A DNA stretch of 64,000 nucleotides. Origin: Lampris incognitus (taxonomy: Eukaryota > Chordata > Actinopteri > Lampriformes > Lampridae). The notes beneath the pieces were generated by a model, which searched no databases, was not told the origin of the DNA, and saw nothing but the letters and a program-made list of their open reading frames with translations. The position numbers and the translations under genes were made by a program. The stretch spans positions 102,814,806 to 102,878,805 of the forward strand of contig NC_079212.1 of assembly GCF_029633865.1 (NCBI RefSeq), given 5' to 3'. Shown in pieces: positions 34,441-57,802 of this stretch (positions within the stretch are counted from its first letter, which is position 1; each line of letters begins with the position of its first letter).

Positions 34441-36269
34441 TGAACTACAGTTGTACACCTAGTCTATTCAACTGCACAGATATAAATAACAGTACAAATA
34501 ATTAGTAATGAATTTCAACTGAACAGAGAACTCAATATTAACACCCTCCTGTTAGCGAGTGGTCTATAGGCCACCGATGTCAGGTAGTTATTGGTGTCAG
34601 TCAATCATTTACGGAAGGTGAGTAATGGTGCCAGAGCGCCGTGGTCTCTTGCTTGTTATGTTTACCTGTTGCTGTGTCAGATGTAGGTTATCAAAACCTT
34701 GGTACTCTCAGCCAGTAGCATGGGCATGTCCATCTGTAGACAGGCGTTTGAATACAATGTTGACAGAGGAGTGGGCAGATCCAGCTGCATCACCTTTGGT
34801 ATGTACCTGCAGTAGTGGAAGATCAGTTATGACTTTCGTATTCATCAATAATGTTGCACTTGATATAGGTGTAGTTAATTTTAATGACTTTGTGAACTTA
34901 CATATTTAATAAAATGTATTAGTTGACTCATTGAGTAAATACACTTAGTTACATTTCACTACTAATTATTACCTGTTGGAATGGCCTGGAATGACAGAAA
35001 GGATGGCATTTTTCTTTGGCTTGGACTCTTGCGTTTCACTGTGATGAAGCATCTCAAAAAACATCATGCACTCTTCTTCTGATGGTTTTATATCGGGAAA
35101 AGCAGGGCCTTGAACCTGACAGGGGTCTTCTTTAGGAGTATGACTAAAATTGATGTTGCGGATTTCTGCATATTGGACCTCTTGAACAGACTGCATACTT
35201 GGCTGGGCCCATTCACAGGGTTTCTCGGTGCAAGCCTGCCCACTCCTGATATCAACAGCAGCCAAAACACAATACATCAGAGCTGATGCATGAGAGCATA
35301 CTTTTCCTAAACCTGCCTTGCAGGTACAATGAGCCATCAGCACAGTCCCATCCTCCTGTACTGCAATCCAGGGGTGTGTTGGGGTCACATTAAGGCTTTG
35401 GGAATGCAACACCTACAATTTACAACAAAAGTAAAGCTAGCAAACTACATAGCTGGCTAGATTAAGACAGTTTGAGACTGAAAAATGCATAAACGTTATT
35501 CTGTGCAACTAGCTAGCCATATCAAAATAGCGTTAGCCAAAAAGCTAAACTGTTGTAGCCTATTTTCATTAGCTAGCTAACGTTAGCTAACTAACGTTAG
35601 CTAGCTGGCTACCGCGTTAGCTTCATAGCCTTGTAACAAGACAGTATTGTTGCAAGGCTAGCTAGCTTCATAGATGTGTCCTGTGCACTGATGCTAATAT
35701 GACATTTATCAACAGACTGTCACTTACCATTCCTGTAAAGACGAACAGTCTTTTCGTTTTTACATGATTCATTTTGACGTCCTTTACCCATCCTGCAGTG
35801 AAGTAGCGGTAGGCTTCAGTGCTTTTGAAGGCTTTCAGGGCTTCACCTGAGTATGGCGAGGGATTGTGGACGGGGTACACGTAAACGTCGTGAAACGTAA
35901 AATTAGGAAGATCTATAGCAGACTGAAGTGGGGTTAATTGGTCTTTGGATAGAAGATAAGGATCCAATTCTAAAAACTCGATTTTTGCAGATAACGCTGC
36001 TTCCCCTCCGTGGTTAAGTGAGCGATTCTGGACAGAGCCAGCTTTCAAACTTCCCGGGGACCGCGGTCCTCAAGATGGCGCTCATAGCAACAAAAACCAC
36101 GTGACTGAAACCCATGACTACCAGACGGTGAGACTGAAAAAACCATGGGTAGATGGTAGCTTGTAACTTCATCTAGCAATGTCACAGGTCTCTGTCATAG
36201 ACGTGCTACTCACTGTAAATTGTTTTCTGTGAAGTTCATCGTGGTAAATGCATTTGTTAAAAGAACGGA

Positions 36270-36482
36270 TGTCATGTACCGGTTTGGCATGTAAGGGCAC
36301 CCGTATGTATGTGACGTCACCTGTTGATGTGGGGAGAAGCGCGACGAATATTGTTCGGGCAGTCTTGCAATACGGTGGAATAAAGCAAGCCACGTTAGGC
36401 ATTGTGTAATAACGGTGTGCCTAATCATTTATAATTAATGACACCTAAATAAGCATATAGGTGGGAATAACAGATCAGAACA
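36270..36482 (+). repeat. 5' LTR, 213 bp
   Basis: It starts TGTCATGTACCGG and ends CAGATCAGAACA. By eye it is identical to the 3' LTR at 41148-41360. It contains a CRE-like TGACGTCA and AATAAAG, which would serve as the poly(A) signal in the 3' copy. Confidence 0.93.
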
Positions 36483-36590
36483 ATGGCGACGAGTGATGTA
36501 CCGAGCCTAAGCTAAGTGATGAGCTAAAGTTCGTAACGTTTAGTTAGATCTGAAGTGTAGCTAACGGTTGTAGCTAGCTAGCGCGGCAGC

Positions 36591-41063: not shown

Positions 41064-41147
41064 AGGAATGTTTTGATACTGTCATTATATGGGTTCATAT
41101 TTTTTAATTGAAAATAACCTGAAGTTTATTTCCCAGAAAAGGACGGA

Positions 41148-41360
41148 TGTCATGTACCGGTTTGGCATGTAAGGGCACCCGTATGTATGTGACGTCACCT
41201 GTTGATGTGGGGAGAAGCGCGACGAATATTGTTCGGGCAGTCTTGCAATACGGTGGAATAAAGCAAGCCACGTTAGGCATTGTGTAATAACGGTGTGCCT
41301 AATCATTTATAATTAATGACACCTAAATAAGCATATAGGTGGGAATAACAGATCAGAACA
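41148..41360 (+). repeat. 3' LTR, 213 bp
   Basis: Same length as the 5' LTR and, as read by eye, the same sequence. The Penelope-like insertion begins 25 bp downstream. Confidence 0.93.
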
Positions 41361-41438
41361 AAGTTTCTGGTTGAATCTGATTCAGTCCAAAGGAGTTGAA
41401 TCGAGTGCAACTGGACTTGGTATATATCCGTGAAGACG

Positions 41439-41468
41439 TTTCGCCTCTCATCCAAGAGGCTTCCTCAG
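41439..41468 (-). ncRNA. Hammerhead-ribozyme-like core in Penelope 3' end
   Basis: On the minus strand CTGAGGA is followed by a perfect 6-bp stem (GCCTCT / AGAGGC, loop TGGATG) and GAAA. This matches the conserved CUGANGA - stem II - GAAA core. Penelope elements are known to carry hammerhead motifs. A GTC triplet lies downstream, but I could not pair stems I and III convincingly, so activity is uncertain. An identical core is at 57672-57701. Confidence 0.45.
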
Positions 41469-41734
41469 TTCGTGCCTTTCTGACTAGACCAAGCTAGTCT
41501 GACTGGCTGGTGATGAGACTCAGAATTTATCCTCTAGGAGTCGTTGTCAGAGCTTATTGATATGCGTGGCTCTTTGTGATCCGATGTTTACCAACGCCCG
41601 TCGCTAACAGAGCCATAGATATGAGTGGCTCTTTTGTGTACCGATGTCCAGCCGCGCCCGTCGTTATCGGAGCTATTGATATTCATTTGTTTAGCAGCGA
41701 CGGTCGTTGGGGGTGTTAGGTTCGACTTCATTAT

Positions 41735-42575
41735 TCAGTGGTCATGAGAGTGGTTGGAGCCGTTAGTGACCGACTGTTGTTCTTGGAGGCTAGGCTTCTT
41801 TAGTCTCCTGGGTAGAGATGAAAGGACGGCATTGTAAGTGGGAGATAGGTGGTGTCGCAGACCTCCTCCTCTGTTGAGGGATGGTTTTTCCAGTTTCGCA
41901 TAGATGGCTTCCTTCACCCCTCTTTTAAACCATCTATCTTCTCTGTCCAAAATATGTACGTTGCTGTCCTCGAAGGAGTGTGTCTTCTCCTTTAGGTGTG
42001 GATAGACTGCTGAGTCTTGTCCTGAGGAGTTTGGCCTTCTGTGTTGGGCCATCCGTTTGTGTAGTGGTTGTTTGGTTTCTCCTATGTATAGGTCAGTGTA
42101 ATCCTCATTGCATTGTACAGCATACACCAGATTGCTTTTTTGGGTGTGTGGTACACGGTCTTTGAGATGAACCAGTCTTTGTTGGAGTGTGTTGCTGGGT
42201 TTGAAGTATACCGGGATGCGGCGTTTGTTGAAAATTCTCCCGAGTTTCTCGGAGACCCCAGAAACATACGGGATGACTGTGCTCTTCCTTCTGTTCCTTT
42301 TCTCCTCCTCGCTCACCTGGTTGGTCTTTTTGGAACGTGTTGCAGTTTTCACAAAGGTCCAACTGGGGTAGCCGCAGGTTTTTAAAGCTCCCCTTAGGTG
42401 TTTGTGTTCTTCTCGTTGGGCCTGAGTGCTGCTGGGCACATTGTCAGCTCTGTGTTGCAAAGTTCTGATGACGCTCAGTTTGTGTTCCAGAGGGCGGTGT
42501 GAGTCGAAAAGTAGATATTGGTCTGCGTGTGTAGGTTTCCTGTAAACCCCCATGTGGAGGCCCCTGTCTTCCCCA
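41735..42575 (-). pseudogene. Penelope-like ORF, GIY-YIG half (minus copy)
   Basis: The 3' part of the minus-strand Penelope ORF. It begins inside the reverse transcriptase thumb (MGVYRKPTHADQYLLFDSHR) and ends with the GIY-YIG endonuclease region: LVYAVQCNEDYTDLYIGETK, then QPLHKRMAQHRRPNSSGQDS and REDRWFKRGVKEAIYAKLEK. It is open for 272 codons to the stop at 41735. Its upstream half is 13.3 kb away at 55901-56345, separated by the DNA transposon. The product would be a reverse transcriptase that makes its own nick. The split makes it non-functional. Confidence 0.9.
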
Positions 42576-42719
42576 CACTGTAAACCCGAACAAGTTCCCA
42601 GAACTCAAAAAATGACAATCAGTTGCCTTATTTTTTAAGTTTATAAACTTAAAAGTCAAATGTTTCCAGAACTTAAACGTTTAGATTACCAGGGACTTAT
42701 ACATTTTGATCAATGTTAA

Positions 42720-43440
42720 AGTGATCATAAAGTCAACTCAAATATGTGTAGTTACTCTGACTTAGGTCCCTTTCACACTTGAAAGTCCAAACCAAGGTCT
42801 GAACCAGAGTCTGGTTCTGGTGCTTTCACATCTGTTATTTTATAGTCATTAGGTTCAGGACTTTTGCTTTCATACCAGCGGACCTTGACTTGAACTTTTG
42901 GCTCGTTGTTGCCGCCAGGTGCGCTCGTTGTTGCCAGGCGCGCTCGCTGTTGCTAGGTGTTACTGTTTGTTTTATCACTTCCTATGATTGATCCGAAAGT
43001 CCGAACCTTTGATTTCACGTTAGACATTCATGAACCTTGGTCTGAACCGAGACTACCTCCTGAGCTTGGACCAAAGACCGAGTCTTTGATCCCTGTACCC
43101 TGGTCCAAGAGGTTTCACACCTGGCAATCTGGTTCGGACTTTTCTGGAAAGTCTGAAAGTCCGGACTAAACAACATTAGTGTGAAAGGGCCCTTAAACAT
43201 CCTCAGTTAAAGCAAATCAAATATTTGCAGTTACTCTGTCTTTAACATTTTCAGTTAATGCAACTCAAATATTTGCAGTTAGTGTGGCTTAGTATTTTCA
43301 TTCACTGCTACTCAAATATTTGCAGTTACTCTGGCTTTAACATTTTCAGTTAATGCAACTCCAATATTTGCAGTTACTATGACAAACTATAAGTTCCCAG
43401 AACTCAAAAAATTTGTTGCAACTGATTACGTCAAAATTTG
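42720..43440. repeat. Subterminal repeats of the CMC-like transposon
   Basis: A unit of about 50 bp built on CAACTCAAATATTTGCAGTT, ACTCTGGCTTTAACATTTTC and AGTTAATG occurs at about 42733, 43213, 43262, 43310 and 43358. The first is separated from the others by a MITE insertion. Subterminal arrays in CACTA elements are binding sites for the element's own proteins. Confidence 0.8.
42765..43192. mobile_element. PIF/Harbinger-type MITE, 428 bp, TTA target
   Basis: The ends are GGTCCCTTTCACACTTGAAA and, on the other strand, GGGCCCTTTCACACTAATG. TTA flanks it at 42762-42764 and 43193-43195. Internal blocks of related sequence (AAAGTCCGAACC, GGTCTGAACC) are themselves in inverted arrangement. There is no coding capacity. 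Confidence 0.82.
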
Positions 43441-43586
43441 AGTTCTGAAAACTCGTTCAGATAAAAAAAACGGCACACCACATTATTTTGTAAACCAAGC
43501 TTATTTATTAAGCATAACGGTTTTTTTTAAAACAATAACATTCATAACATTCATGATAACAGATTGGCAATTTCAAGATCTATGGG

Positions 43587-44400
43587 GTCTGTCACATTTT
43601 ACTATAATCTATAAAATTGGATGTTAAACTAAAATTTGGTGACTGCCGGGTCCAGTGCTACGTCACCAAAGTAGGCGGGACTGCTGTGCTCTATTGGACT
43701 CATTTTCAAGGAAGTAAGAGCCATCTGAGCATGACACACACTGACCAGATGCAGTATTTGGTTCAGTAATAAAAATAATAACATCAAAACAATAAAGTTG
43801 AATAACTGGAGACATGTAGGATAGCCTGCATCTTCAGAAATAAGGAAGACACATTCATTTTCTTAGAAGATCGGTGTCACACTTATCTTCCCCACACTGG
43901 ATGCAGCATTTATCAGCAAGATGATCAGTCTGAATGGACTAAGCTCTTTCAGCTACTACAATGTAAGTTTGTATAATGCCCAATTAAAAGAAAAGTCTCA
44001 GTATGTTTTTACATCATCATGTCATTCTTTAGAGTCTGCAGCCTTGGCGACAGTTTACCATCTTGTAGACCAAGTAAAATCTTCTGAATAAATTCAAAAG
44101 GGTTTGTCAGTCCTTTGGGATAACTGAGGTGCAAAGCATAAATGAAACCAAACATTACTACAAAGGCATCACCAAACCTCGGAAGGCTCATCACAGTCTC
44201 GCTTTCAATGACGACTGATACTTTGTCAGGCTGGTAGTGTACGGGACTTGTCTCACTGTCCGTGATGACCGAAAGGAGGGCCACTGGAACATCGCCAATC
44301 TCTGGCCCATCAGGTGACGTAGCACTGGACCCGGCCGTCACCAAAATTTAGTTTAACATCCAATTTTATTGGTTATAGTAAAATGTGACAAACCCCACAT
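43587..44400. repeat. Inverted-repeat-bounded patchwork with transposase pieces
   Basis: Arms of about 80 bp (GTCACATTTTACTATAA, AAAATTGGATGTTAAACTAA, CCGGGTCCAGTGCTACGTC) lie at about 43590-43670 and, inverted, at about 44320-44395. Between them, 43683-43760 matches 48545-48622 and 43822-43905 matches 48968-49066 of the transposase gene, with about 350 bp of coding sequence missing between the two pieces. The rest holds the last exon of the SAMD3-like gene. It looks like a rearranged deletion copy of the element. Confidence 0.7.
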
Positions 44401-44862
44401 TAGATTTTTGTGTTAACTCTGTCTAAACAAAGAAAATAATGTTTTCAGCTCATAAACACCCTTTTTTCTGACTACCGGGTCCCGTTGTACGTCACCAAAG
44501 TAGGCGGGACTGCGGAGCTCTATAGTGTTTCACAGGAAACCAATGTGTACGCTTCCTCCAGGAAGTACTGGAACTGGACTAGAAAGCTCATTTAAATAAT
44601 TCAGCCTTTCTAAATGCAAGACGATCTATTCACCCGTTCATCGTGGACTTTAAAAATCCCAGCAAGAGCCTCTGAGGTCTTCCCCGTTTTGGACGCCTTC
44701 TGTCTGAATAATGTCATAAGTCGAGGAAGATGTCGGTCAAGCTCTGTGTAGAATGTGTTGGGGAGGTTCTGGTTGGGGATCCTTTGGAACTCCGCATACA
44801 CTTACATTTCAAAACAGATGAATAAGAACTAAACTTTCACTTCAAATCACGCAAAATGTTCC

Positions 44863-45174
44863 ATATTGTAGCGGCTGAAGGAAGAGCCACATAAGATGTG
44901 CGCACGGACACACAGACTTATAGGACTATTGTGTGTGTGGTTCGTCTTTCACCAGTTAGAGGCGCCATTGTCAAAGCAGGAAGTTAGTGCAGTGTTGGCG
45001 TGGTTATCGGTGAGTTGTGTAGCTTGTCAACTCATCGATAACCACACCAACACTGCACAACTTCCTGCTTTGACAACGGCACCTCCAACTGGCGCGAGAC
45101 AAACACAACAGTCTCATAAGTCTGTCTCCATGCGCACACGTCTTATGCGGCTCTTCCTTCAGCTGCTACAATAT
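44863..45174. mobile_element. Palindromic MITE, arms ~148 bp
   Basis: The left arm (ATATTGTAGCGGCTGAAGGA, AGCCACATAAGATGTGCGCA, CAAAGCAGGAAGTTAGTGCA) pairs with the right arm nearly to the centre (TGTAGCTTGTC). It lies in an intron of the SAMD3-like gene. There is no coding capacity. Confidence 0.82.
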
Positions 45175-45439
45175 TATGTACGTTTTTATAATGCAAGTTT
45201 TCTAATGTTGAGTTCTCCAATAAAAACAAATAGAACTAGTCTCAGTAGACCAACACCGCCACCTAGTGGTCGGGGTGCATTAAGAAAATATCACATCCTC
45301 CTTTTTCTGAGGTTAATAAAATAACTAATACTAAACAATAATAATGCTAAACAATGCATAAACACAGGTGAGTATTTCCTTCAGGTAACAGGTAAGTACT
45401 ATGTTTTATCATTGTATCTTTTATCTTAGATTGATAGCT

Positions 45440-45625
45440 CTTGTATCTTAGATTACAATTCTTGCACTTTGCCTTCAGCACTTGATTATGCTCCTAGCCA
45501 CCTATTTTAGAAAGAGATACACTTGTAAGTTCTATAAACTAGTAGTACCTTGACTTTTCCTATGTTACAAGTCGCTTTGTATAAAAGCGTCTGATAAATG
45601 ACTAATGTAATGTAAATGTAAAAAG
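45440..45625 (+). repeat. SINE/L2-type 3' tail
   Basis: GTTACAAGTCGCTTTGTATA, AAAGCGTCTGATAAATGACT and AATGTAATGTAAATGTA form the common fish retroelement 3' end with ATGTAA repeats. Confidence 0.7.
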
Positions 45626-46914
45626 TAGGTAACAAAACAGGTCAGTATTCTTTTTCAGTTAACCTCTTAACAATAACCATTACTCTTTTCCCCCCTTTTT
45701 AGGTAAAGCAACAACTAAGTAAATAAACAACATACAATGTACAGTTTAAGATATCCATGATGATTTTATAGGATGCATAATCCTACAAGTCCATCATCAC
45801 TTTAAGAGAGCTCATTACCCTCAGACTCCATTTTGAGAGCAGGCCAAAGGTCCAGGAGCTCGCTCACTGGGGGGCAAGACTTGAGAATCGTCTGTCGGCG
45901 CAGGGCGAATGTGGTCTGCATCAGCTTTTTTTAATTAGGGACAGATCCTTCTCCGTCTTCTCGAGTTCTTCTGCGATCCTCTGCCTCAACTGCTCCAAAC
46001 TTGTGGTATCCTCTCCTTTAGGAGAGTTGGGCAAGTAGTTAACCTCGGCTCGTTTGGGTCTTTTTATGTTCGTATGGGCAGGTTCACTTTCCGGGTGGCT
46101 TCTGCTTCTTTTTCTCCGCATTTACAGTGACCTCCTGACATCCAGCCTGTCTCATCTTGTTCCTGAAGTTGCCCATCTTGAACATGATGCGGTTCTTCCA
46201 TCCATTCCACCCAGTCTCGGATCCTGCTTCTTTCAAGCAGGGGTGTTTGGCCACAAGAGCCTCAGCAGCCATTGACATCTCTAACACTTGGGTAAGCCTT
46301 GAAACTATATATAGTAGATGCGAGCTTGTCTAGAATGTCATGTTTAATGTCTCGTCACCTTAAGGTGTGTGTTGTTCTTCTCAAATTCGGTATTTCCATC
46401 TCCAAGTTTCAGCTCAACATCAAAAGAAAATGTGGGAACTGGAAAAGCTCCATGAGGCCATCTGCTTAAACGTTCTGGAGAAGACACATCTGAAAGTAAT
46501 TCAGTGGATGCTTGAGAGCCGGTGTCTTCAGAAGGCGAGATGTGTACAACAGCTTTTTGTGACAATTCCTCAATGTCAGCAACGGTAGACAGTTTCCCAT
46601 CAAAGTCAGGGTCTTTCTAAAGCAAAGTGAAATCAATGTATAGTTCCATCTGTTCTTTTATGATCCTGAGCAGTGCATTAACAGAAGCTGGTCTTGAACT
46701 GAGTTTTAATTTTCTAGCCCGGTCTTGTTCAACAACGCGAAGGATCATGGGTTCTGGGGTTGCATTTGCCATTGTGCTAATGAAAAGAAGAACTTGGGAT
46801 GTTAAAGGAAAGCAATACCTATAGATAATATTATTCTTAAGGTTAGATAAAATGACAGGAAAAAGATCGCGAAATGCACACACGTTGAAAGCGGCTACTC
46901 AACCTTAGCTGGAC

Positions 46915-49592
46915 TCAGTTCTGTTTAACTTGAATGAACCACTTGGGAGTCAGCAGCAGCGAGCGGTCGATCTTGTATGCAGAGAGTGGGCCTATATCAT
47001 TTAGATCAGACTGCAAATAGATAGACATTGTTAGTGTGGTTGACAGCTCATAGGACTGAAGATGTTCTACATAACAGGAGTCGTAATCACAACACAGAAA
47101 AGAAACCTCCCGATTCACAAGGTAGATGAGTTCTATTTTGCCAATATTAGGCAGTCCACCACTCTCTCCAGCAGAGAGAAACATTCCACAAGCATACTCT
47201 GTGCCATCAATTGTCACCTTTGATGTCTGGTAGATTGTGTCACTAGTTGTTTGTCCTCTAATGCTGACCTGAGCTACTGCTGGTAGAGCTGAAACTAGAA
47301 CAGAGTCAACTCTGGATGCCTGGGTTTTGGGCTTGAAATATGATGGTGCAGCAAGATGATATGCCATCATGTGTTGGTGTCTGACTGCGATCGTCTTCAA
47401 AAATTTTTTGAAGTTTTGTGCATCATGAACCACTTTCTTGAAGAAGCGATGCTTGGCCTCAAACCGCATGGTCCAAACATGCAGCAAGGACCCAAAGCAC
47501 TTCACTAGAGCAGAATAATGCTCCACATAGTGATGTTTAGGACGGAGCCTAAACTCAAGGAAAAACTCTTGTAGTGTCTGTATATGATCATTGATTCTGC
47601 TCTGAAAATACTCCAAGGTTTCATCAGTAAATGAAGGGCACAATGCTAACTCTACCACCTCTTTCAGCTCCATCAAAACTGCCCATGCCGCATCACACTC
47701 TGGTACTACACTGCCCACAAGCAATGGAAGGATTTGGATCAGAGTGGCATTTTCATGCCCATTGCCTCCCATTGTTCCTCGAGAAAGGGATGTTTTGGGA
47801 ATTGGCTGAGGTCTATTCACTTTATCAAGAGTGCTGATATGGGAATGATGAAATCTTCTGGTTCAAATACTCAAAAGTGAAATACTTCAGCCGGATCAAC
47901 TCTTTAATACAAAGAGCAAGCTTCACAGGAACGATGCCTTCTAGAAGATCATGGAGTATGTCTGGAGGAAATCCTGTGATTGGATGGAAGTAATCAAGGG
48001 ACTCGCGCAAGACACAGTCACCTTTAACACCAAGATGGCTGCTCAAAGTGTCATCTCCTTGAACAGTTTGTACGTGCAGGTCATGGCTGGCTTTGGTTCT
48101 CTGAACAAAGTCTCCCTCTGTGACTGAAGCCGTTTGAAACTGTTCACATGTGGCAAGACAGACTCTGCAAACACAGCCTGCTCTAAATGATTCCACAAAG
48201 CCACCAAGTCCATGAGCAGCCAGATTGTCAGCAGAAACACTAAAGATAGTACCTTTGACATTCTGACCAAGACTTTCGATGAAGACACCATCTTGTTCCA
48301 GAGTATGAACATCACGTAGCAGTGGAGCGAGTACAGCTGCATATCCATACGCTTGAAGGTCTGTCACTTTCACCAGCATTGCTAGCTGTATAGTATGTAA
48401 TGCTGATCGGTATTTAGGTGGCACATTTGCAAGAACCCAATATACAGCTGTAAATTTGTGAATCTTGCGTGACGTGCCAAGCGGATTGGCAATTTCAAGA
48501 TCAATGATGTATAGCTGAAGCGGTAGGATGGGGTCCCCCGAAGACAGCAACTCATTTTCAAGGACGTAAGAGCCACCTGAGCATGACACATACTGACCAG
48601 ATGCAGTATTTGGTTCAGTAATCTTGTTAAGGATGTCTGTGTTTTTAAACAACTTTTGAATCATTGGAAGAATGGGAACATACATGCTGGTGTGTCCAGC
48701 TTGTTCCAACTGATACTCCACTGGCATCACACATGGATAGCTGCACTCAATAAAGGTTTTTCTGCGCTTGGATGAAGACAACTCTGCACCTTTCGAGGTA
48801 GATGTAGATAGAATATTGGAGTCCATGACAGCGCCAACAACTTCATTCAGTGTAGACTCTGCAATATTGTGGCCATTTCTCTGCAATATGTCATTAACTG
48901 CCTCCTTGATCAATGGCTGAGATAAAGTGAAGATCTCATTCAAGCGGTCTACTATTTCTTAAATAGCTGTGTTTGAGACATGTAGGATAGCCTGCATCTT
49001 CAGAAATAAGGAAGACATTCATTTTAAGTTGATTTCTTAGAAGATCAGTGTCACACTTATCTTCCCCCACTTCTGTGCTCTGGTTTGGGGATTCGCCATG
49101 CAAATCACAAGTGACATCAGAAGTACTTGCTTGGGGATTCTGGGGGTCCTCAATGACAAGGCCAGGTTGAAAGTCTGATGCAAGACTTGCTTGGTGTTCT
49201 CTACTTTTATGGGTATTGAATGAAGAGTAGAAATTTGTGCTATAGCTACAATCCTTATAAGGGCACGCCACTGTCTCATGATTTTTTAAATGCTTTCTGA
49301 GATGGCGGAAGAGAATGGATTCAAAAAAGGGTTGTTGAAATGTGCATAAGGAGCATTTAAATAACTGAGGCTGACTCAGACTCTGCTCAGCACAACTGCT
49401 AAGTTGTATAGTATGATATCTTGACAAATGTGTACGCTGTGCATCAAGTGTCTGAAATGTACACATGCAATCTGTATAGAGGCATGGCAGAGGGCTAACT
49501 CTGGAGAAGTGGCTGTGCTGCAGTCTATAGTGTCCAAATAACTCCGCTCTTGAAGTAAAAGAAGAAGAGCACATTTTACAATGCCAGGCCAT
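46915..49592 (-). pseudogene. C2H2-finger / tnp2-like transposase of the CMC-like element
   Basis: Likely start ATG at 49592: MAWHCKMCSSSFTSRAELFG, then more C2H2-like fingers (PLPCLYTDCMCTFQTLDAQR, CSLCTFQQPFFESILFRHLR, CPYKDCSYSTNFYSSFNTHK). A frameshift near 49015 and a TAA for an expected Gln (about 48961) follow. The central part reads NEIFTLSQPLIKEAVNDILQ, ECSYPCVMPVEYQLEQAGHT, LPLQLYIIDLEIANPLGTSR and ITGFPPDILHDLLEGIVPVK. An extra T near 47832 shifts the frame. The last part has RLRPKHHYVEHYSALVKCFG and LHVWTMRFEAKHRFFKKV, which resemble the tnp2 transposase block of CACTA elements. Expected job: bind the element ends and cut. In fish these are multi-copy 'uncharacterized' proteins. 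This copy cannot give a full product. Confidence 0.8.
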
Positions 49593-50350
49593 ATTGGAAG
49601 CATCGAGGAGTCCACGCTCACCCAGGCGCATAGGTTCTTGACGGCCTAAGGTGCTATTAGAAATGTTTTTATGCATAAGCATTATTATTATTATTGGTAT
49701 CATACCAGTAGCCGTTTGTCCGACCCCTTCAGCTTCATGATGAAGTCCACCAATCTTTCATTGGCAGACCTGCGGGCTTCTCTTGCACGTTTTGCCATCT
49801 TTGCTGTAGTGGTCATCAAGTAATGTAGAGGAACCTCTAGGGATGTGTGGCAAAGGACAACTTGTGAATTCTAAACCAACCCAGAGTAATTCATCAAATA
49901 TCGTAAAAACACAACACGCAATGACAATGTATGGTCCTTTTTTGTTGTGGCTGTCCTGTAAAGTTTGTCAAATGTCACTTAACCCCCTCTGGTTCCAAGC
50001 CCTCATTATGTTCCTGTAATGTAAGAGAGCAACAAGAAGAGATGATGACTGAAAAATATATTCATTTAACAATGCACTTTTAAACATTAGTTAATAAAGT
50101 GTTTGAAGCACCTGAATGTATCAATGGTTTTGATTATACCGGTAATTAAATTGAATTTCAATCTGACCTGGACGACTTCCGAAAACGTCCGTTTCCGGAG
50201 TCTTGAGAGAGCTGAAGACAGGAGGCAGGTCATCTCTCAGTAGAGCTTTGGACTGCTCTGTCCAGTGGGCAAAAACCTTGCCATGCCTTGAAAAGATGAA
50301 ATCTGAAAAGCCAATTAGACCCTATTCTAGTTCAATGTCTGCAATGGGAC
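49593..50350 (-). other. Gap between transposon genes, with a short exon-like segment
   Basis: 49720-49817 on the minus strand reads MTTTAKMAKRAREARRSANE then RLVDFIMKLKGSDKRLL and a GTATGA donor. At about 50160-50290 an open segment reads FSRHGKVFAHWTEQSKALL and DDLPPVFSSLKTPE. Both could be small exons of the neighbouring transposon genes, but I cannot link them by splice phase. The rest is AT-rich with no signal. Confidence 0.35.
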
Positions 50351-52364
50351 CTTTTCATACTCCGTGTTGAGTACTTTGCTGCTTTTCCTCATCTCCCTCC
50401 CAATCCATGGTGCCCAATTGTCATATGCCGGTTGGACAACAAATGGATTCTGTGAAGAGTCTGCATCAAAAACATTGAAATATCTAATACAGTTCATTCC
50501 GGGGAGACGCAGTCACACCCGATGGGACCTAGTGTATTTTACTCTTTTGACAAACTATATACACTGTGGCACCCCGATCTCCCATCGGCGCTCCACTGGA
50601 CTGCTGATCCACCTTCGGCAACATGGAGAGCGACCTGACCTGGCCTCACAACACTCACTATCAAAAAATCCTCTGCTTATCATGTGTAGATGGACGGATT
50701 CCCAAAATACCTCTATGTTGTGTTCACCTTGGAAGTCATCACTCAGTTGTTTCAGCTCACTAACTGCAATCACCAAATACAACATAAGGCACAAAATATC
50801 CTTTGAGGATGAGTAGTAAGTACATTGTAGTTTATGTGGCACCTACAAAAAAGTAGTTAAAAAGCGATTTACCTAAATAGCACTTTTAGGAAAAACTTAC
50901 CCTCAAAGTTGAACACTGCTTTTCTGTGGAGGTCCATAACCACCACATGGGGGGGTAGAACCCACAGTTTACACATGAGTATGTGTATTCTCTGTTGCAA
51001 AGTGCCTCAAAGTGGCAGTATGCTTGAAAAATTAAGTTGGTGGCTGGAAACCGTTCTTCACACAAAGCCTCCAGAGAGCTGATGACTCTAGACCAGTGTT
51101 TCTCAACCGGGGGTCCGCGGACCCCTAGTGGTCCGTGGTGTAATTGCAAGGGGTCCGTGAAAATAAAATATCTTTTAAAAAAAAGATCCTATGACATTTA
51201 TTGAAATAGGATTATTTTACTCAAATGTGACTGAGACCTTTATCTACCTAAACTATAAAGGGTAACAGGACTTTTTTCTCTAATTACATCTGTTTCACAA
51301 GTGTAATTTATTGTATTTTAATAAGAGATCTCGCTCCCGTTTGCATTGTTAAGTTACTGCATAAAAATTCTGTTGTTACATATATCTGAAAGTGACTGAA
51401 TACATATTCTGTTTTGTTACATATATCTGAAAGTTACTGCATAAGAATTCTGTTTTGTTAACTATATCTAAGTTACAACTGAAAGCTCTTATTTTTGCCC
51501 CAAAGAGTGAATAAATGCTATAATGCAATTTAAAATGCAGTTTCTACTGTTTCTATCAAATTGCAACCCCCCTCCCCCAAGATCAGGTGGAGGGGTCCTC
51601 AGGGTAGATCAAAAATACGCAGGGGGTCCAGGACCCCAAAAAGGTTGAGAACCACTGCTCTAGACACTGACACATGATTCTATGGTAAAAAAAATAAGAC
51701 AGGAAAAGGTTTGAAATGGATGGTATGAATATGCTAAAAACGCAGTACTACCGTAACTAGTAACATCATTCCCTGCAATCACTGTACCTGGTAATGTATT
51801 TATTTAAAAAATGGGCAAATAAATTGCAGATGTGGAATAGGCTGCCAATTTAACTTTGATTAGTGCCGCAGAAACCACAGTACTAGCAGAAAAGGGGCAA
51901 CAGAGAATTTGGAAAATCTTGCGACAATAGTTAGTTGAACAATTTTCAATTGATGAAATCTTTCTGGGTCAATATGGAATAAATGAAGGTCATAACACCT
52001 TGTGTTGTCTGTCATTAACACTGTTTTACACACCTGAAGATTGTGCCTTAGGTAAAGGCAAAGCTGCAGTGTCAGAATAACATGGTCATTGAAATTAAGC
52101 AGACCATCTGTCCATTCCTGATAACGGTAGATCATGTGGCATTCAGTACCCCTTCTATTGTAAGTAGAGATGTCTGTAATGGACATAAGGATATAAATTA
52201 GGACATTAAATCAGCTGTATATGGTTAATCAAACGATTAATGTACATGCACACTGTCCTTTTATAAACTAAAGGATGAATTTAACTTACTTTGGATTACA
52301 CCATTCATGCCAACTATTCTGGCTTTGTCTGTGATGTGCGAGATTTCCTCCAATTTGGGATTGC
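50351..52364 (-). pseudogene. 'HMGXB3-like' cysteine-rich transposon protein, damaged
   Basis: Third minus-strand gene of the CMC-like element. Exons: 52290-52364 (LEEISHITDKARIVGMNGVI); 52034-52173 (GTECHMIYRYQEWTDGLLNF, NDHVILTLQLCLYLRHNLQ); 50901-51679, interrupted by a hAT MITE (SVSRV, then ISSLEALCEERFPATNLIFQ and YCHFEALCNREYTYSCVNCG); 50659-50763 (VSELKQLSDDFQGEHNIEVF); and about 50351-50460 (SSQNPFVVQPAYDNWAPWIG, KVLNTEYEK). Splice phases agree across most junctions. A C-run near 50948 has 7 Cs and shifts the frame before MDLHRKAVFNF. This order matches fish models auto-named HMG domain-containing protein 3-like; no HMG box is visible. Spaced Cys pairs suggest metal binding. Function unknown. 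Confidence 0.72.
51094..51657. mobile_element. hAT MITE, 564 bp, 8-bp TSD
   Basis: It starts CAGTGTTTCTCAACC, ends GGTTGAGAACCACTG and is flanked by CTCTAGAC at 51086-51093 and 51658-51665. It contains GGTCCGCGGACCCCTAGTGG and GGGGGTCCAGGACCCC. It sits inside an exon of the HMGXB3-like gene. Confidence 0.93.
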
Positions 52365-52839
52365 CTTAACAGAGCTTGCATGTCGTTTCAGTTGGAATCA
52401 ACTTTGAAGGGTAATCCTTCGAACCTCAAACAGTATCCATTTTAAACTCAATTAAACTAATTAATTTACACAAATATTTTAATAAGTGCTTAGCTAGCTA
52501 CATGGCCTGCAACAACTACGCAACGAAACATCGCTAGCTAAATGCTTAGAGCCACTTGACATTTCGAATGTATTTTCTCCATATCGGTAAGTTATACCCA
52601 CGCTCGCTGGATTCTTCGATACATTAAGTTTGATAGACAACATTGAATAAAACCTTAGAAAAGAAAACTAACCTTTTAAAGTATCTTCTTACCGCTGTCG
52701 CAGTATCTTCTACTTCTTCTTTCCGTTTTATGGCGGATTGCAATCTTAAAAACAACACGAAGACGATCAACGTCCGGCTTCATGGCAACCGCGGAGGTCA
52801 CGTGTTTTCCTGTCAAATGCGGAGGTGCCTCTTGCGGAG

Positions 52840-54695
52840 GTACGCCATTTTGTCTGCAGCCAGGTGCATCTCGTTTGCGTTGGAATCTATCGGAGTCGCT
52901 CTTAGAACTGAGTAGGTCATTTCGGTCACTTTCTAAAGCACACTCTAAACTAAAAATGGCTAAAGCTAACGCAAAGCTAAAGGCTCTCCAAATGCACGAC
53001 TACTGCGGTCCAGAGAACATGGAGACAAACGCCAAAGGCACAAAAAACACCCTTACATCTCCTGCCAAGTCGCCAGGTCCTCAGAAAAAACAAAAAGGAG
53101 ACGAGGCCACAACTGCTGGAGCCCATGCCGAAGATACCTCGAATGCTGCTATCTTAGCTGCCATCGGTACTCTCCGCAACATGATGGAGGATTTCAAGAC
53201 GGAGTTGAAACAAAACACACTGACCATTGCTAACATCGCAAAAGCGGTCGAGTTTAACTCGGCCGAAATCAAAGAGTGCAAGGATAAAAACAAAGAGTTT
53301 GATGGAGAAATAAAACAACTCCGTGTGAAGAACGCAGAGCTGGAAAAGAGAGCTACAGAACTTAAACGCTACAAGAGAAGATGGAACTTAAGACTTAACG
53401 GCCTGAAAGAAGAAAAGGAGGAGAATACACGACAGCTCGTCGCTGAAATCATCGGGAAGATTGTTCCACACTGGAAGGAGAAGATGGATCTCATCCTGGA
53501 ACAAGTCTTTATTCTTTAAAGATTGGTATGAGGAAAATATATGGTCGATAGTTGATCTAATGGATCCTAGTGGTAATTTATTAAATTATGAAGAATTCCA
53601 GACAAAACATACTTTCAAGCCTTCCAAATCAGACTTTACTAAATTACATAAAGCACTCCCCAAAGAATTTGTATCTCTGATAACAAATATAATGACTCAC
53701 CAACCTATACAGCCACGATTGGTCCCACTGTCAATTCAAGGGTTTTTAATCTTGGACAAAAAAATTAATAATAATTTATTTAGAAACTGTCTCACTGAAA
53801 ACTTATTCCCTGAAAGACAAAACAAAAATGAGATTTTACACAAATTTGATAAAAATTCAATTATTAAATTGAGTACAATGTATCTAACATTTCCTACCCC
53901 CCCCCAAAGCGAAGGAAACACACTTCAAAATTATGAATAACATATATCCCTCCAAATAACTACTTAGATCACGGTTTGGTTTTGACAATAATAATTGTTA
54001 ATTTTGTGAAAATGACATAGAAACTACGGACAATGTATTTTTCTCATGTGGTGTGGCATGTGTGTTCTGGCTTGACATTCACAAATGGATAAAGCAATGG
54101 ATTTTGTCCTTTCCAACTTCAATTTCCAGAGACAATATAACATTTGGTATGATTTTGCAAAACAAAAACGATGAACTCTGTTGTAATGTAATACTCTGCT
54201 TAGCCAAATTCTTTATTCATAAAAATAGATACTTAAAGTCGTCCCCCAAATTTGTTGTTTTTTTAAATGAATTTAGATTATACTTGAAATCTTTAAAGCT
54301 AATGACCGATACAAAAGCAATAAAGATTTATGAGGTGTTAAGACATGTTCCCACTGAATTAGAAGACTGATATCCTTATTAATTCCCCCTTGTATGATGG
54401 ACTATGTTTTATTATTTTCAATTAGTGTATGTCATGTAGTTAAATTTATTATTGTTTGTACCCTTATTTTCATAATACATTACCGTATATTTGTCATGTG
54501 ACATTCAATCTCTATGTACTTCCTGATATACTGTATAGAAATGTTTACATACTGTTCCCTTTGGCACTTTGGATATATCTGTGTATTTTTGGATGGAATG
54601 TATATTTGCCATGTTTGTTTTGTAATGGACTTTTTTCAAGAATCTGTACATGAATATGAACAATGTTCAATATATATATATATATATATATAGAA
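52840..54695 (+). mobile_element. Internally deleted L1-like LINE
   Basis: The 5' part encodes an L1 ORF1-like protein. A Lys-rich N-terminus (MAKANAKLKALQMHDYCGP) is followed by a long coiled coil (NAELEKRATELKRYKRRW) and the start of the RRM-like domain (NLRLNGLKEEKEENTRQLVA). At about 53510 it passes directly into the C-terminal part of ORF2 (IWSIVDLMDPSGNLLNYEEF, PIQPRLVPLSIQGFLILDKK, then CSFCENDIETTDHVFFSCGV-like sequence in another frame, and FWLDIHKWIKQWILSF). The endonuclease and reverse transcriptase are deleted. It ends in a (TA)n run at 54671-54693. It lies within the CMC-like transposon. Confidence 0.82.
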
Positions 54696-55469
54696 AAAAG
54701 TTAACGTTTGACCCCTCTTCTTGTCATAAAGTTAGCTAGCAGCTAACGTTAGACTAGAACGAGCACAACTTGTCGGCTAGCGTAATGCAGCTAATAATAA
54801 CTACCTAACATTCGCACTAACTTTACAGCTAACGTTAGTTAGACCCTCAGAAGACGCTTATTTTTCAGGTAAATGGCTAGATGTAACTAAAGGAGCTGGG
54901 CCTGGGAGTAGGAACGCTGTGTACGCCGGCCTGATTGGGACGGCCTTGGAGCAGGAACGCTATGCACATAAATCTGATTAGGACACGTGCTACACATGCA
55001 AGACAACATGAGGGAAACATGTGACGAAAGGAAACCGAGAAGAAGAAGATCACGCCTGTCTCCGAAAGGAACCACGCATGTTGTAGTATATATCATTATG
55101 TTTTTCCACTGTCGGGCAGACGACTCCCGTTTGCACCGAGGGTACGTCTCCAGCGCTGCTACATTACCTGTGAACTATTTGTTGTGCGCCAATAAAACGA
55201 CACGAACCAGCAAGAAGTCGTCTGAATTCTTATTTGCCTATGTCGACCTGAATCAAAGAACCGGGCGAGCCTTTTGCAAATGCGAAGACTCAACCTAGCT
55301 AACGTTACTACCTGCAGTGTTAACGCACGAGGTTACGGTACCTCCGAGGTATAGCTAGCTGTCTGTCTGCTAGCAATAATCGACGGTACCAAGCTAGCGC
55401 AAATTTGGCAGACGGTCAGCTAAATTAGCTAATGCTGCTAGATTACACTTTTCAGAGGAACGTTGTAGA
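54696..55469. other. Non-coding part of the CMC-like element with CTAACGTTAG motifs
   Basis: Several GCTAACGTTAG-type palindromes occur here, and also at about 35520-35620. A stretch around 54890-55260 (CTGATTGGGACGGCC, then GCCAATAAAACGAC) could be a decayed solo LTR, but borders and duplication were not found. Confidence 0.35.
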
Positions 55470-55680
55470 CTTACCAGATGTTGCTCTTTCTGGTGGTGCC
55501 ACTAAAGACTCACGAACACTCTCTGTGGTGATTGCAGAATGGAAGCACGTGCTTTGTTCGGGCGGGCGCGGGAAACGCTATACCTGCTTCTGATTGGCCA
55601 GTCCTCACTGTCTACTCTCTGATTGGCTATAGGCGCTGCTGCGCTATTGTCGTGCCACGTGATTAGTTAGGCCTAGTCAT
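55470..55680 (-). promoter_or_regulatory. Candidate promoter and first exon of the CMC-like element
   Basis: A strong minus-strand donor (AACATCTG then GTAAGTCTAC) ends a possible non-coding exon at 55475. Upstream, at 55520-55680, are two GATTGGC boxes (inverted CCAAT), a CACGTG E-box and a GC-rich GGGCGGGCGCGGG stretch. It sits 220-430 bp inside the right end and points toward all three genes. Confidence 0.45.
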
Positions 55681-55900
55681 TTTAAGTTTGGCATGAGTAA
55701 TACGTTTAAGCGTTGCTTAATTAATTCAAAAAAATAGTTCAAGTCAATTAAAAATTATGAGTTGAAGTTACTTAAAAAGGAAGAACATGGAAGAACATGT
55801 CACACAAACTTGAAATTTTTAAGTTTGTAGAACTCTGTGAAAACATTGAGTATACCCTACTTCATCTATTAAATTACTTTGAGCATTAGGGTTTAAAGTG

Positions 55901-56350
55901 CAATGTGGATGTCACAGCCCAAGAAGGGTAAACTGTTGTTCTTTACGTCTTCCCTTGTGAACTTAATGTTCTTGTCCACTGAGTTGATGTGTTTGGTAAA
56001 TGCTTGCACCTCTTGTGTTTGGATTTCGACCCATGTGTCGTCCACATATCTGAAGCAGCGCAGAGGTGTTCCTCTGAAGGAGTTCAGGGCCCTGTGTTCT
56101 ACCTCTTCCATATATAAGTTGGCCACAATGGGCAATACTGGTGAGCCCATTGCACAGCCGTGTTTCTGTCTGTAAAACCGGCCCCTGAATTGGAAATATG
56201 TAGTGTTCAGGCAAAGGTCCAGTAGTTGGCAAATCTGGTCTGGGCTGAGGTTGGTCCTATTGTGGAAGGTGTTGTCCCGTAGCAAACGTTGCCTCAAAGT
56301 TTCCAAAGCCTCCATGGTTGGGATGCAGGTGAATAGCGAGGTCACGTCTG
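55901..56350 (-). pseudogene. Penelope-like ORF, reverse transcriptase half (minus copy)
   Basis: The upstream half of the split minus-strand Penelope ORF: VTSLFTCIPTMEALETLRQR, RGRFYRQKHGCAMGSPVLPI, then RYVDDTWVEIQTQ, the catalytic Asp pair, and KFTREDVKNNSLPFLGCDIH. It stops at the right border of the CMC-like element and resumes at 42575. It is 5'-truncated at the junction with the plus-strand copy. Confidence 0.9.
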
Positions 56351-56359
56351 TTATTCAAC

Positions 56360-57405
56360 TTACATATGAATGAGGTAGAACACAGGGCCCTGAATCCTTC
56401 AAAGGAACACCTCTGAGCCACTGGTTCAGATATGTGGACGACACATGGGTCGAAATCCAAACACAAGAGGAGCAAACGTTTACTAAACACATCAACTCAG
56501 TGGACAAGAACATTAAGTTCACAAGGGAAGATGGAAAGAACAACAGTTTGCCCTTCTTGGACTGTGACGTCCACATTGGGGAAGACAGGAGCCTCCACAT
56601 GGGAGTTTACAGGAAACCTACACACACAGACCAATATCTACTTTTCGACTCACACCACCCACTAGAACACAAACTGAGCGTCATCAGAACTTTGCAACAC
56701 AGAGCTGACAATGTGCCCAGCAGCACTCAGGCCCAATGAGAAGAACACAAACACCTGAGGGGAGCTTTAAAAACCTGCGGCTACCCCAGTTGGACCTTTG
56801 TGAAAACTGCAACACGTTCCAAAAAGACCAACCAGGTGAGCGACGAGGAGAAAAGGAACAGAAGGAAGAGCACAGTCATCCCGTGTGTTTCTGGGGTCTC
56901 CGAGAAACTCAGGAGAATTTTCAACAAACACCGCATCCCGGTATACTTAAAACCGAGCAACACACTCCGACAAAGACTGGTTCATCCCAAAGACCGTGTA
57001 CCACACACCCAGAAAAGCAATCTGGTGTATGCTGTACAATGCAATGAGGATTACATAGGAGAAACCAAACAACCACTACACAAACGGATGACCCAACACA
57101 GAAGGCCAAACTCCTCAGGACAAGACTCAGCAGTCTATCCACACCTAAAGGAGAAGACACACTCCTTCGAGGACAGCAACGTACATATTTTGGACAGAGA
57201 AGATAGATGGTTTAAAAGAGGGGTGAAGGAAGCCATCTATGCGAAACTGGAAAAACCATCCCTCAACAGAGGAGGAGGTCTGCGTCACCATCTATCTCCC
57301 ACTTACAATGCCGTCCTTTCATCTCTACCCAGGAGACTCAAGAAGCCTAGCCTCCAAGAACAACAGTCGGTCACTAACGGCTCCAACCACTCTCATGACC
57401 ACTGA
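56360..57405 (+). pseudogene. Penelope-like ORF, plus-strand copy
   Basis: It starts within the reverse transcriptase (YVDDTWVEIQTQEEQTFTKH) and continues without the transposon insertion through LPFLDCDVHIGEDRSLHMGV and YRKPTHTDQYLLFDSHHPLE. TGA at 56737-56739 interrupts the frame. Then come KSNLVYAVQCNEDYIGETKQ (the GIY-YIG region, shorter by the TDL of the other copy) and WFKRGVKEAIYAKLEK, with the stop at 57403. It is 5'-truncated. Confidence 0.9.
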
Positions 57406-57671
57406 ATAATGAAGTCGAAACTAACACCCCCAACGATCGTCGCTGCTAAACAAATGCAAATCAATAGCTCCGATGGCGACGGGCGCGGCTGGACATCGGT
57501 ACACAAAAGAGCCACTCATATCTATGGCTCTGTTAGCGACGGGCGTTGGTAAACATCGGATCACAAAGAGCCACGCATATCAATAAGCTCTGACAACGAC
57601 TCCTAGAGGATAAATTCTGAGTCTCATCACCAGCCAGTCAGACTAGCTTGGTCTAGTCAGAAAGGCACGAA

Positions 57672-57701
57672 CTGAGGAAGCCTCTTGGATGAGAGGCGAA
57701 A
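57672..57701 (+). ncRNA. Hammerhead-ribozyme-like core, plus-strand Penelope copy
   Basis: The same CTGAGGA - 6-bp stem - GAAA core as at 41439-41468, about 90-120 bp before the element's 3' end. Conservation of the paired stem in both copies is consistent with an RNA function, but stems I and III are not established. Confidence 0.45.
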
Positions 57702-57802
57702 CGTCTTCACGGATATATACCAAGTCCAGTTGCACTCGATTCAACTCCTTTGGATAACCATGACCTGGATGAATGGCAACATTCACAGACAATCTGATTC
57801 AG

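Follow-up and report, generated by a model that had tools for sequence, protein, structure and literature searches.

Is the 13,325-bp unit with CACTG ends at positions 42576-55900 of a 64,000-nucleotide stretch from the fish Lampris incognitus (contig NC_079212.1, positions 102,814,806 to 102,878,805; this whole stretch is termed the window) one large three-gene transposon, as the original prediction had it, or a smaller element of familiar type in which others have settled? It is very probably a dead, degenerate, low-copy CACTA/EnSpm-like (CMC) cut-and-paste DNA transposon of known class, and its giant three-gene look is due to other mobile elements that have landed inside it.

The borders can be placed to the base. 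The unit begins with the terminal inverted repeat CACTGTAAACCC (42576-42587, plus strand) and ends with GGGTTTAAAGTG, and CA stands on either side as a target-site duplication (42574-42575 and 55901-55902, from flank reading and comparison with an empty site); the outer left flank reads ...TTCCCCA and the outer right flank begins CAATGTGG. Each 12-bp end has a single occurrence in the window. The flanking sequence can be read as two inverted pieces of a Penelope-like element, and in profile searches its open reading frames (ORFs) give an RVT_1 match above the cut-off (E=3.2e-7) and a GIY-YIG match slightly under it (E=2.5e-4, 21.7 bits, cut-off 22.6 bits). The inverted second piece, a plus-strand copy delimited by the flank matches (56356-57754), contains at 56577/56578 the same sequence without the element. 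When the flanks are joined and the element left out, 73 of 78 positions match this empty site, ungapped and with a single CA. Over greater length, identity is 96.7% between the left flank (41386-42575) and 57754-56577, and 91.5% between the right flank (55901-56121) and 56578-56356, the two matches overlapping by the 2 duplicated bases.

The same ends recur elsewhere in the 1.48-Gb genome of L. incognitus, whose contigs are denoted here by C-numbers. The left 191 bp have nine genomic matches (seven from query base 1, one from base 2 and one from base 49), and the right 260 bp have seven, every one of which extends to base 259 or 260. Both ends are found in the same orientation at five loci, namely the window (13,325 bp), C13 (9,147 bp), C25 (10,708 bp), C22 (6,252 bp) and C27 (6,781 bp), and the four complete copies other than that of the window, spanning 6.3-10.7 kb, have a left end identical to its own. 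A 2-bp duplication, and none longer, flanks all five (CA in the window, TA on C13, AA on C25, TA on C22 and CA on C27), for which the chance estimated from window dinucleotides is about 1.3e-6, and CAC reads inwards at nine of the ten ends, the exception being GAC at the right end on C27. Incomplete copies are also present. Within the 20 kb read, C12 and C9 show the left end by itself; C277, too, lacks the right end but retains, besides its left end, core of the right side as far as 55570; on C16 just part of the left end is present and the right end is missing; and two right ends on C5 have no partner among the nine left-end places. The base-exact borders, CA duplication and empty site put forward originally are thereby borne out, as the borders agree among the five loci and the two ends co-occur there.

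Within the borders, on the minus strand, lies a degenerate CMC-type transposase with N-terminal C2H2 fingers (46915-49651), recognized from ORFs and motifs and split across three ORFs in different frames. It has D153, D244 and, after D244, CRVC (C264-C267), with HYVEH and RFEAKH in the next ORF, and these motifs are shared or matched in its best distant relative, C12:44189097 (L045), a nearly open transposase, also with N-terminal C2H2 fingers, that is 39% identical to that of the window. Genomic matches to the middle ORF number 109, a lower bound from 109 of 274 candidates scored, and comprise the window, five others at 88% or more, and more distant relatives. Those five lie in the four other complete copies; all are partial and four have internal stops. 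In none of the complete copies read is the transposase unbroken, so that they seem to be dead or to rely on some other source, and the initial description of the element as autonomous-type is not supported. With the Transposase_21 (tnp2) profile the window ORFs have no match and L045 has one below the cut-off (E=0.0014, 18.3 bits, cut-off 28.6); a window ORF matches Plavaka at E=0.23, also below the Pfam cut-off. Comparison of L045 with solved structures gave 14 matches in the zinc-finger region (best E=0.0016), and an NCBIfam search a single weak match without meaning. The tnp2-like transposase first proposed can be retained as a distant relative, and the CMC/EnSpm class by motifs, ends and duplication.

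Downstream on the same strand are pieces of a second gene, its broken middle at 45835-46348 and a C-terminal piece at 44009-44347 (both minus strand). L045 has the same gene directly downstream of its transposase, the likeness to the window's middle piece being in three tblastx pieces of 41-65% identity, and the L045 gene has a PB1-like domain match below the cut-off (E=7e-4). The presumed start of the window's second gene has no similarity to L045 by BLASTP and so is unproven. Its C-terminal piece has 66 genomic matches. Co-location, taken as lying within 20 kb, was scored with all listed matches of the transposase (109), of this C-terminus (66) and of a CxC4-like exon dealt with below (97); eleven of the 66 are near a transposase match, at ten loci, five of which are the element's own copies.

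Alignment to the other copies covers 42576-42764, 43192-49652, 54700-54890 and 55296-55900, each in at least one other copy and with 47167-47422 excepted. The core of the element can accordingly be given as 43193-49651, found with that exception in at least one of C13, C25, C22, C27 and C12, together with 54700-54890 on the right side and 55296-55900 up to the right end. About 5.9 kb of the window copy is absent from the four other complete copies, which leaves about 7.4 kb in common, and in this part are pieces of two genes. Missing from those four are 42765-43192, the stretch from 49652 to about 54700, and 54891-55295. The first is a miniature inverted-repeat transposable element (MITE) with GGTCCCTTTCACAC ends and a TTA duplication, at whose position copy C13 is uninterrupted, and it has at least 39 further genomic places (40 of 182 candidates scored). 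It splits the left subterminal array (42734-43387, plus strand), in which repeat comparison distinguishes five units spaced at 48 bp. Subterminal repeats at both ends are typical of CMC, or CACTA/EnSpm, elements. Counted at up to 9/32 mismatches, the window has five units on the left and none on the right, such units adjoin both ends in C13, C25, C22 and C27, and one of the right-end loci on C5 (C5b) has none; the subterminal repeats of the original prediction are thus present on the left of the window copy and missing on its right. As a separate matter, pieces of the transposase (48484-49071) recur, with internal deletion, in 43562-44523, where inverted arms of 85 nt lie at 43583-43667 and 44313-44397; as this second set of pieces is also present in other copies of the element, it is an old rearrangement of the family.

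Where the window has a block of 5 kb from 49652 to about 54700, the four other complete copies have a common left breakpoint at about 49651 and about 1 kb that includes the right subterminal array. The left part of the block (49652-52873, minus strand) belongs to a dispersed repeat, here truncated, that contains a CxC4-like exon and that genome searches mark as foreign to the element: with 49500-52700 as query, there are at least 33 places where the match starts at window position 49652 or 49653 (40 of 1,381 candidates scored). The exon matches its profile at E=4.3e-5 (23.8 bits, under the Pfam cut-off of 26.9), and two exons joined by eye do so at E=9e-4. Six other copies of this repeat were inspected, L046 and, as pairs of short stretches, five more. 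On the left, beyond 49652, the six have sequence in common, and similarity to the window ends at about 52873 in five of them and some 10 bp earlier in the C12 copy, from which it follows that the window copy is left-truncated and that its right boundary is real. An inverted end of the repeat, sought in L046, gave just short chance matches besides the self-match. Within the repeat, 51094-51657 is skipped by the matches of other copies and has the 8-bp duplication CTCTAGAC on both sides, and is therefore a later MITE. Next to the repeat are plus-strand pieces (52874-54690) assigned by eye to long interspersed nuclear elements (LINEs), no LINE profile having matched: 52874-53497 as a coiled-coil ORF1-like piece and 53498-54690 as a common 3′ tail, which recurs in at least 39 places elsewhere in the genome (40 of 529 candidates scored). 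The remaining insert, 54891-55295 (0.4 kb), is found in the window only. Since 42765-43192, 49652-52873 and 53498-54690 are other repeats absent from the four complete copies, the 13.3-kb three-gene form first described is not upheld, and neither is the inside as a single multi-gene unit.

Three observations on the components of the block can be set beside these. The junction at 53497/53498 is sharp, the ORF1-like 5′ piece and the common LINE-like 3′ tail that meet there having one orientation, and at C13:39717534-39718760 the same tail adjoins a 42-bp piece of the right end of the CxC4 repeat. Inside the CxC4 repeat, 49700-49797 (minus strand) is a short exon-like start with a weak match, below the cut-off, to the PWWP3A/B C-terminus (E=1.3e-4). 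Clusters of more distant CxC4 exons, similar to one another and about 47-51% identical to that of the window, occur at C30:0.12-1.80 Mb and C18:1.0-2.3 Mb.

A number of points weigh against an enlarged CMC element, both as to its class and as to its extent. All family-profile matches are sub-threshold, the seven Transposase_21 matches in the genome are all at other loci, the catalytic D, D and E were assigned by eye on two-sequence alignments, and CACTG-type ends were not found in the relative L045 within the 9 kb read. Four of 20 mismatched pairs of left and right flanks also agree over 2 bp, and therefore the support comes from the five of five together with the empty site and not from the duplications alone. 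As to extent, 47167-47422 is matched by no other copy read (it is absent in C27, C12 ends before it and the others begin later). Other copies have themselves received insertions, in C25 for example a long retroelement-like frame, so that the core is defined by sharing alone and may contain older nested repeats. Finally, no duplication was seen around the 5-kb block, the CxC4 repeat in it is left-truncated and about 1 kb of the element is missing there; the block is no clean nested insertion, and insertion of the whole of it in that manner is rejected on these grounds.

These features of the block have a counterpart in the alternative that survives best, a variant in which the block arose from a single gap repair with template switching after excision, and not from stepwise insertions. 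The lack of a visible duplication, the truncation of the CxC4 copy, the replacement of about 1 kb with its array and the abutting of a LINE-like piece on the CxC4 end would all suit it, but stepwise insertion plus deletion would look alike and the inner MITE is an ordinary insertion with its 8-bp duplication, and the variant is possible though the less likely course. That a CACTA element acquired LINE sequence and part of an unrelated repeat, gene included, in one such event, and perhaps mobilized them, is more doubtful still. Much further down in probability is a genuine multi-gene transposon of 13.3 kb in which the CxC4 gene is regular cargo that the other copies lost by internal deletion. 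The exon does lie between the two ends and shares its strand with the transposase, and was first taken as cargo and a third gene, and deletion derivatives might show a common left breakpoint such as that at about 49651; against this, only one of the 97 CxC4 exon matches is near a related transposase, and that one is the window itself, the CxC4 repeat stops near 52873 and continues leftwards past 49652 in the six other copies inspected, and the four other complete copies hold subterminal repeats at the position of CxC4. The genome searches assign the exon to another repeat, and cargo is a very improbable explanation. Co-location also has a point that speaks against exclusivity, as CxC4 matches lie close to five of the 66 second-gene C-terminal matches, four of these being on C14 and one in the window. 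That there is no mobile unit, the ends being chance sequences at a Penelope-like junction, can draw on the one-base difference between the right and left 12-bp ends of the window copy and on the agreement of mismatched flanks, but has next to no probability given both ends with 2-bp duplications at five loci in different flanks and the empty site.

For a CMC transposon enlarged by other elements, the following history may be envisaged. An intact transposase would have attached to both the 12-bp ends and the subterminal repeats of 48-bp spacing, and excision by its DDE site would have been followed by insertion at a staggered 2-bp cut. The window copy presumably went into a Penelope-like element, with the nested gains coming after or around that time: the MITE near its left end, the 5-kb block (the truncated CxC4-gene repeat with its own MITE and the LINE pieces) probably in exchange for some 1 kb that included the right subterminal array, and the 0.4-kb insert. 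By these gains the window copy would have grown from about 7.4 kb to 13.3 kb.

The known systems to which the element is closest are here compared as far as the accessible text of the cited papers goes. The CMC group is defined in PMC12730594, where C(2)C and H(3)H are part of the definition along with a DDE transposase, and CMC-EnSpm elements make up 4.69% of the zebrafish genome with 382,820 copies (PMC4746887). CAC..GTG ends, a short duplication and DDE with C(2)C and H(3)H are features held in common with such teleost CACTA/EnSpm elements, from which the window copy differs in being broken and swollen by insertions; the likeness is one of class features. Animal CACTA elements have 2-bp duplications, as revealed by sites in repeats without the element (PMC1636069), and a 3-bp duplication is given for CACTA elements in PMC4158355. 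With SmTRC1 and the animal TRC elements (PMC1636069) there are in common 2-bp duplications, paralogous empty sites, a Transposase_21-type protein and several copy sizes, but TRC ends begin CCC and those of the window CACTG, and the window transposase is a distant tnp2 relative. The fungal Plavaka/ESTA and EnSpm elements resemble it in their C(2)C and H(3-4)H layout, mostly CA..TG ends and 2-5 bp duplications, although Plavaka ends are TGT..ACA or CATCA..TGATG (PMC12730594). A CxC4-like exon inside the borders recalls Zisupton/KDZ, yet this exon belongs to a different dispersed repeat, and a KDZ/Zisupton identity is ruled out by a duplication of 2 bp rather than the 8 bp of Zisupton (PMC12730594). 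Nor is a size of 9-14 kb unusual for the class, since PMC1636069 reports a mosquito element of 9.2 kb and Rim elements that average 14.1 kb. No paper naming the family of the element was found in a literature search that did not reach Repbase or most subscription journals. No new mechanism is implied. The element provides a base-exact CMC reference, with its 2-bp duplication, empty site and four more complete copies, that is useful in annotation, and a warning that nested insertions can inflate the size and gene number read off one copy.

Some minor observations concern the surroundings and the relatives of the element. Directly left of the Penelope-like piece is a direct repeat of 225 bp (36259-36483 and 41137-41361), 99.6% identical and about 4.9 kb apart. 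At C14:47.53-47.70 Mb, CxC4-repeat matches and four second-gene C-terminal matches are within 20 kb of one another, and no transposase match is on C14 among the 109 scored. Related transposase matches, several nearly identical, recur every 184-247 kb at C25:12.29-13.71 Mb (eight match groups) and at intervals of 94-508 kb at C6:61.1-63.3 Mb, a pattern that would fit tandem repetition of large segments or of very large elements. A related transposase that is 32-33% identical to that of the window keeps one open frame of 341 aa throughout its 13 places (C16, C22, C289, C492, C523, C38, C53, C521, C377, C525, C533 and C522), which suggests a recently multiplied or satellite-borne copy.

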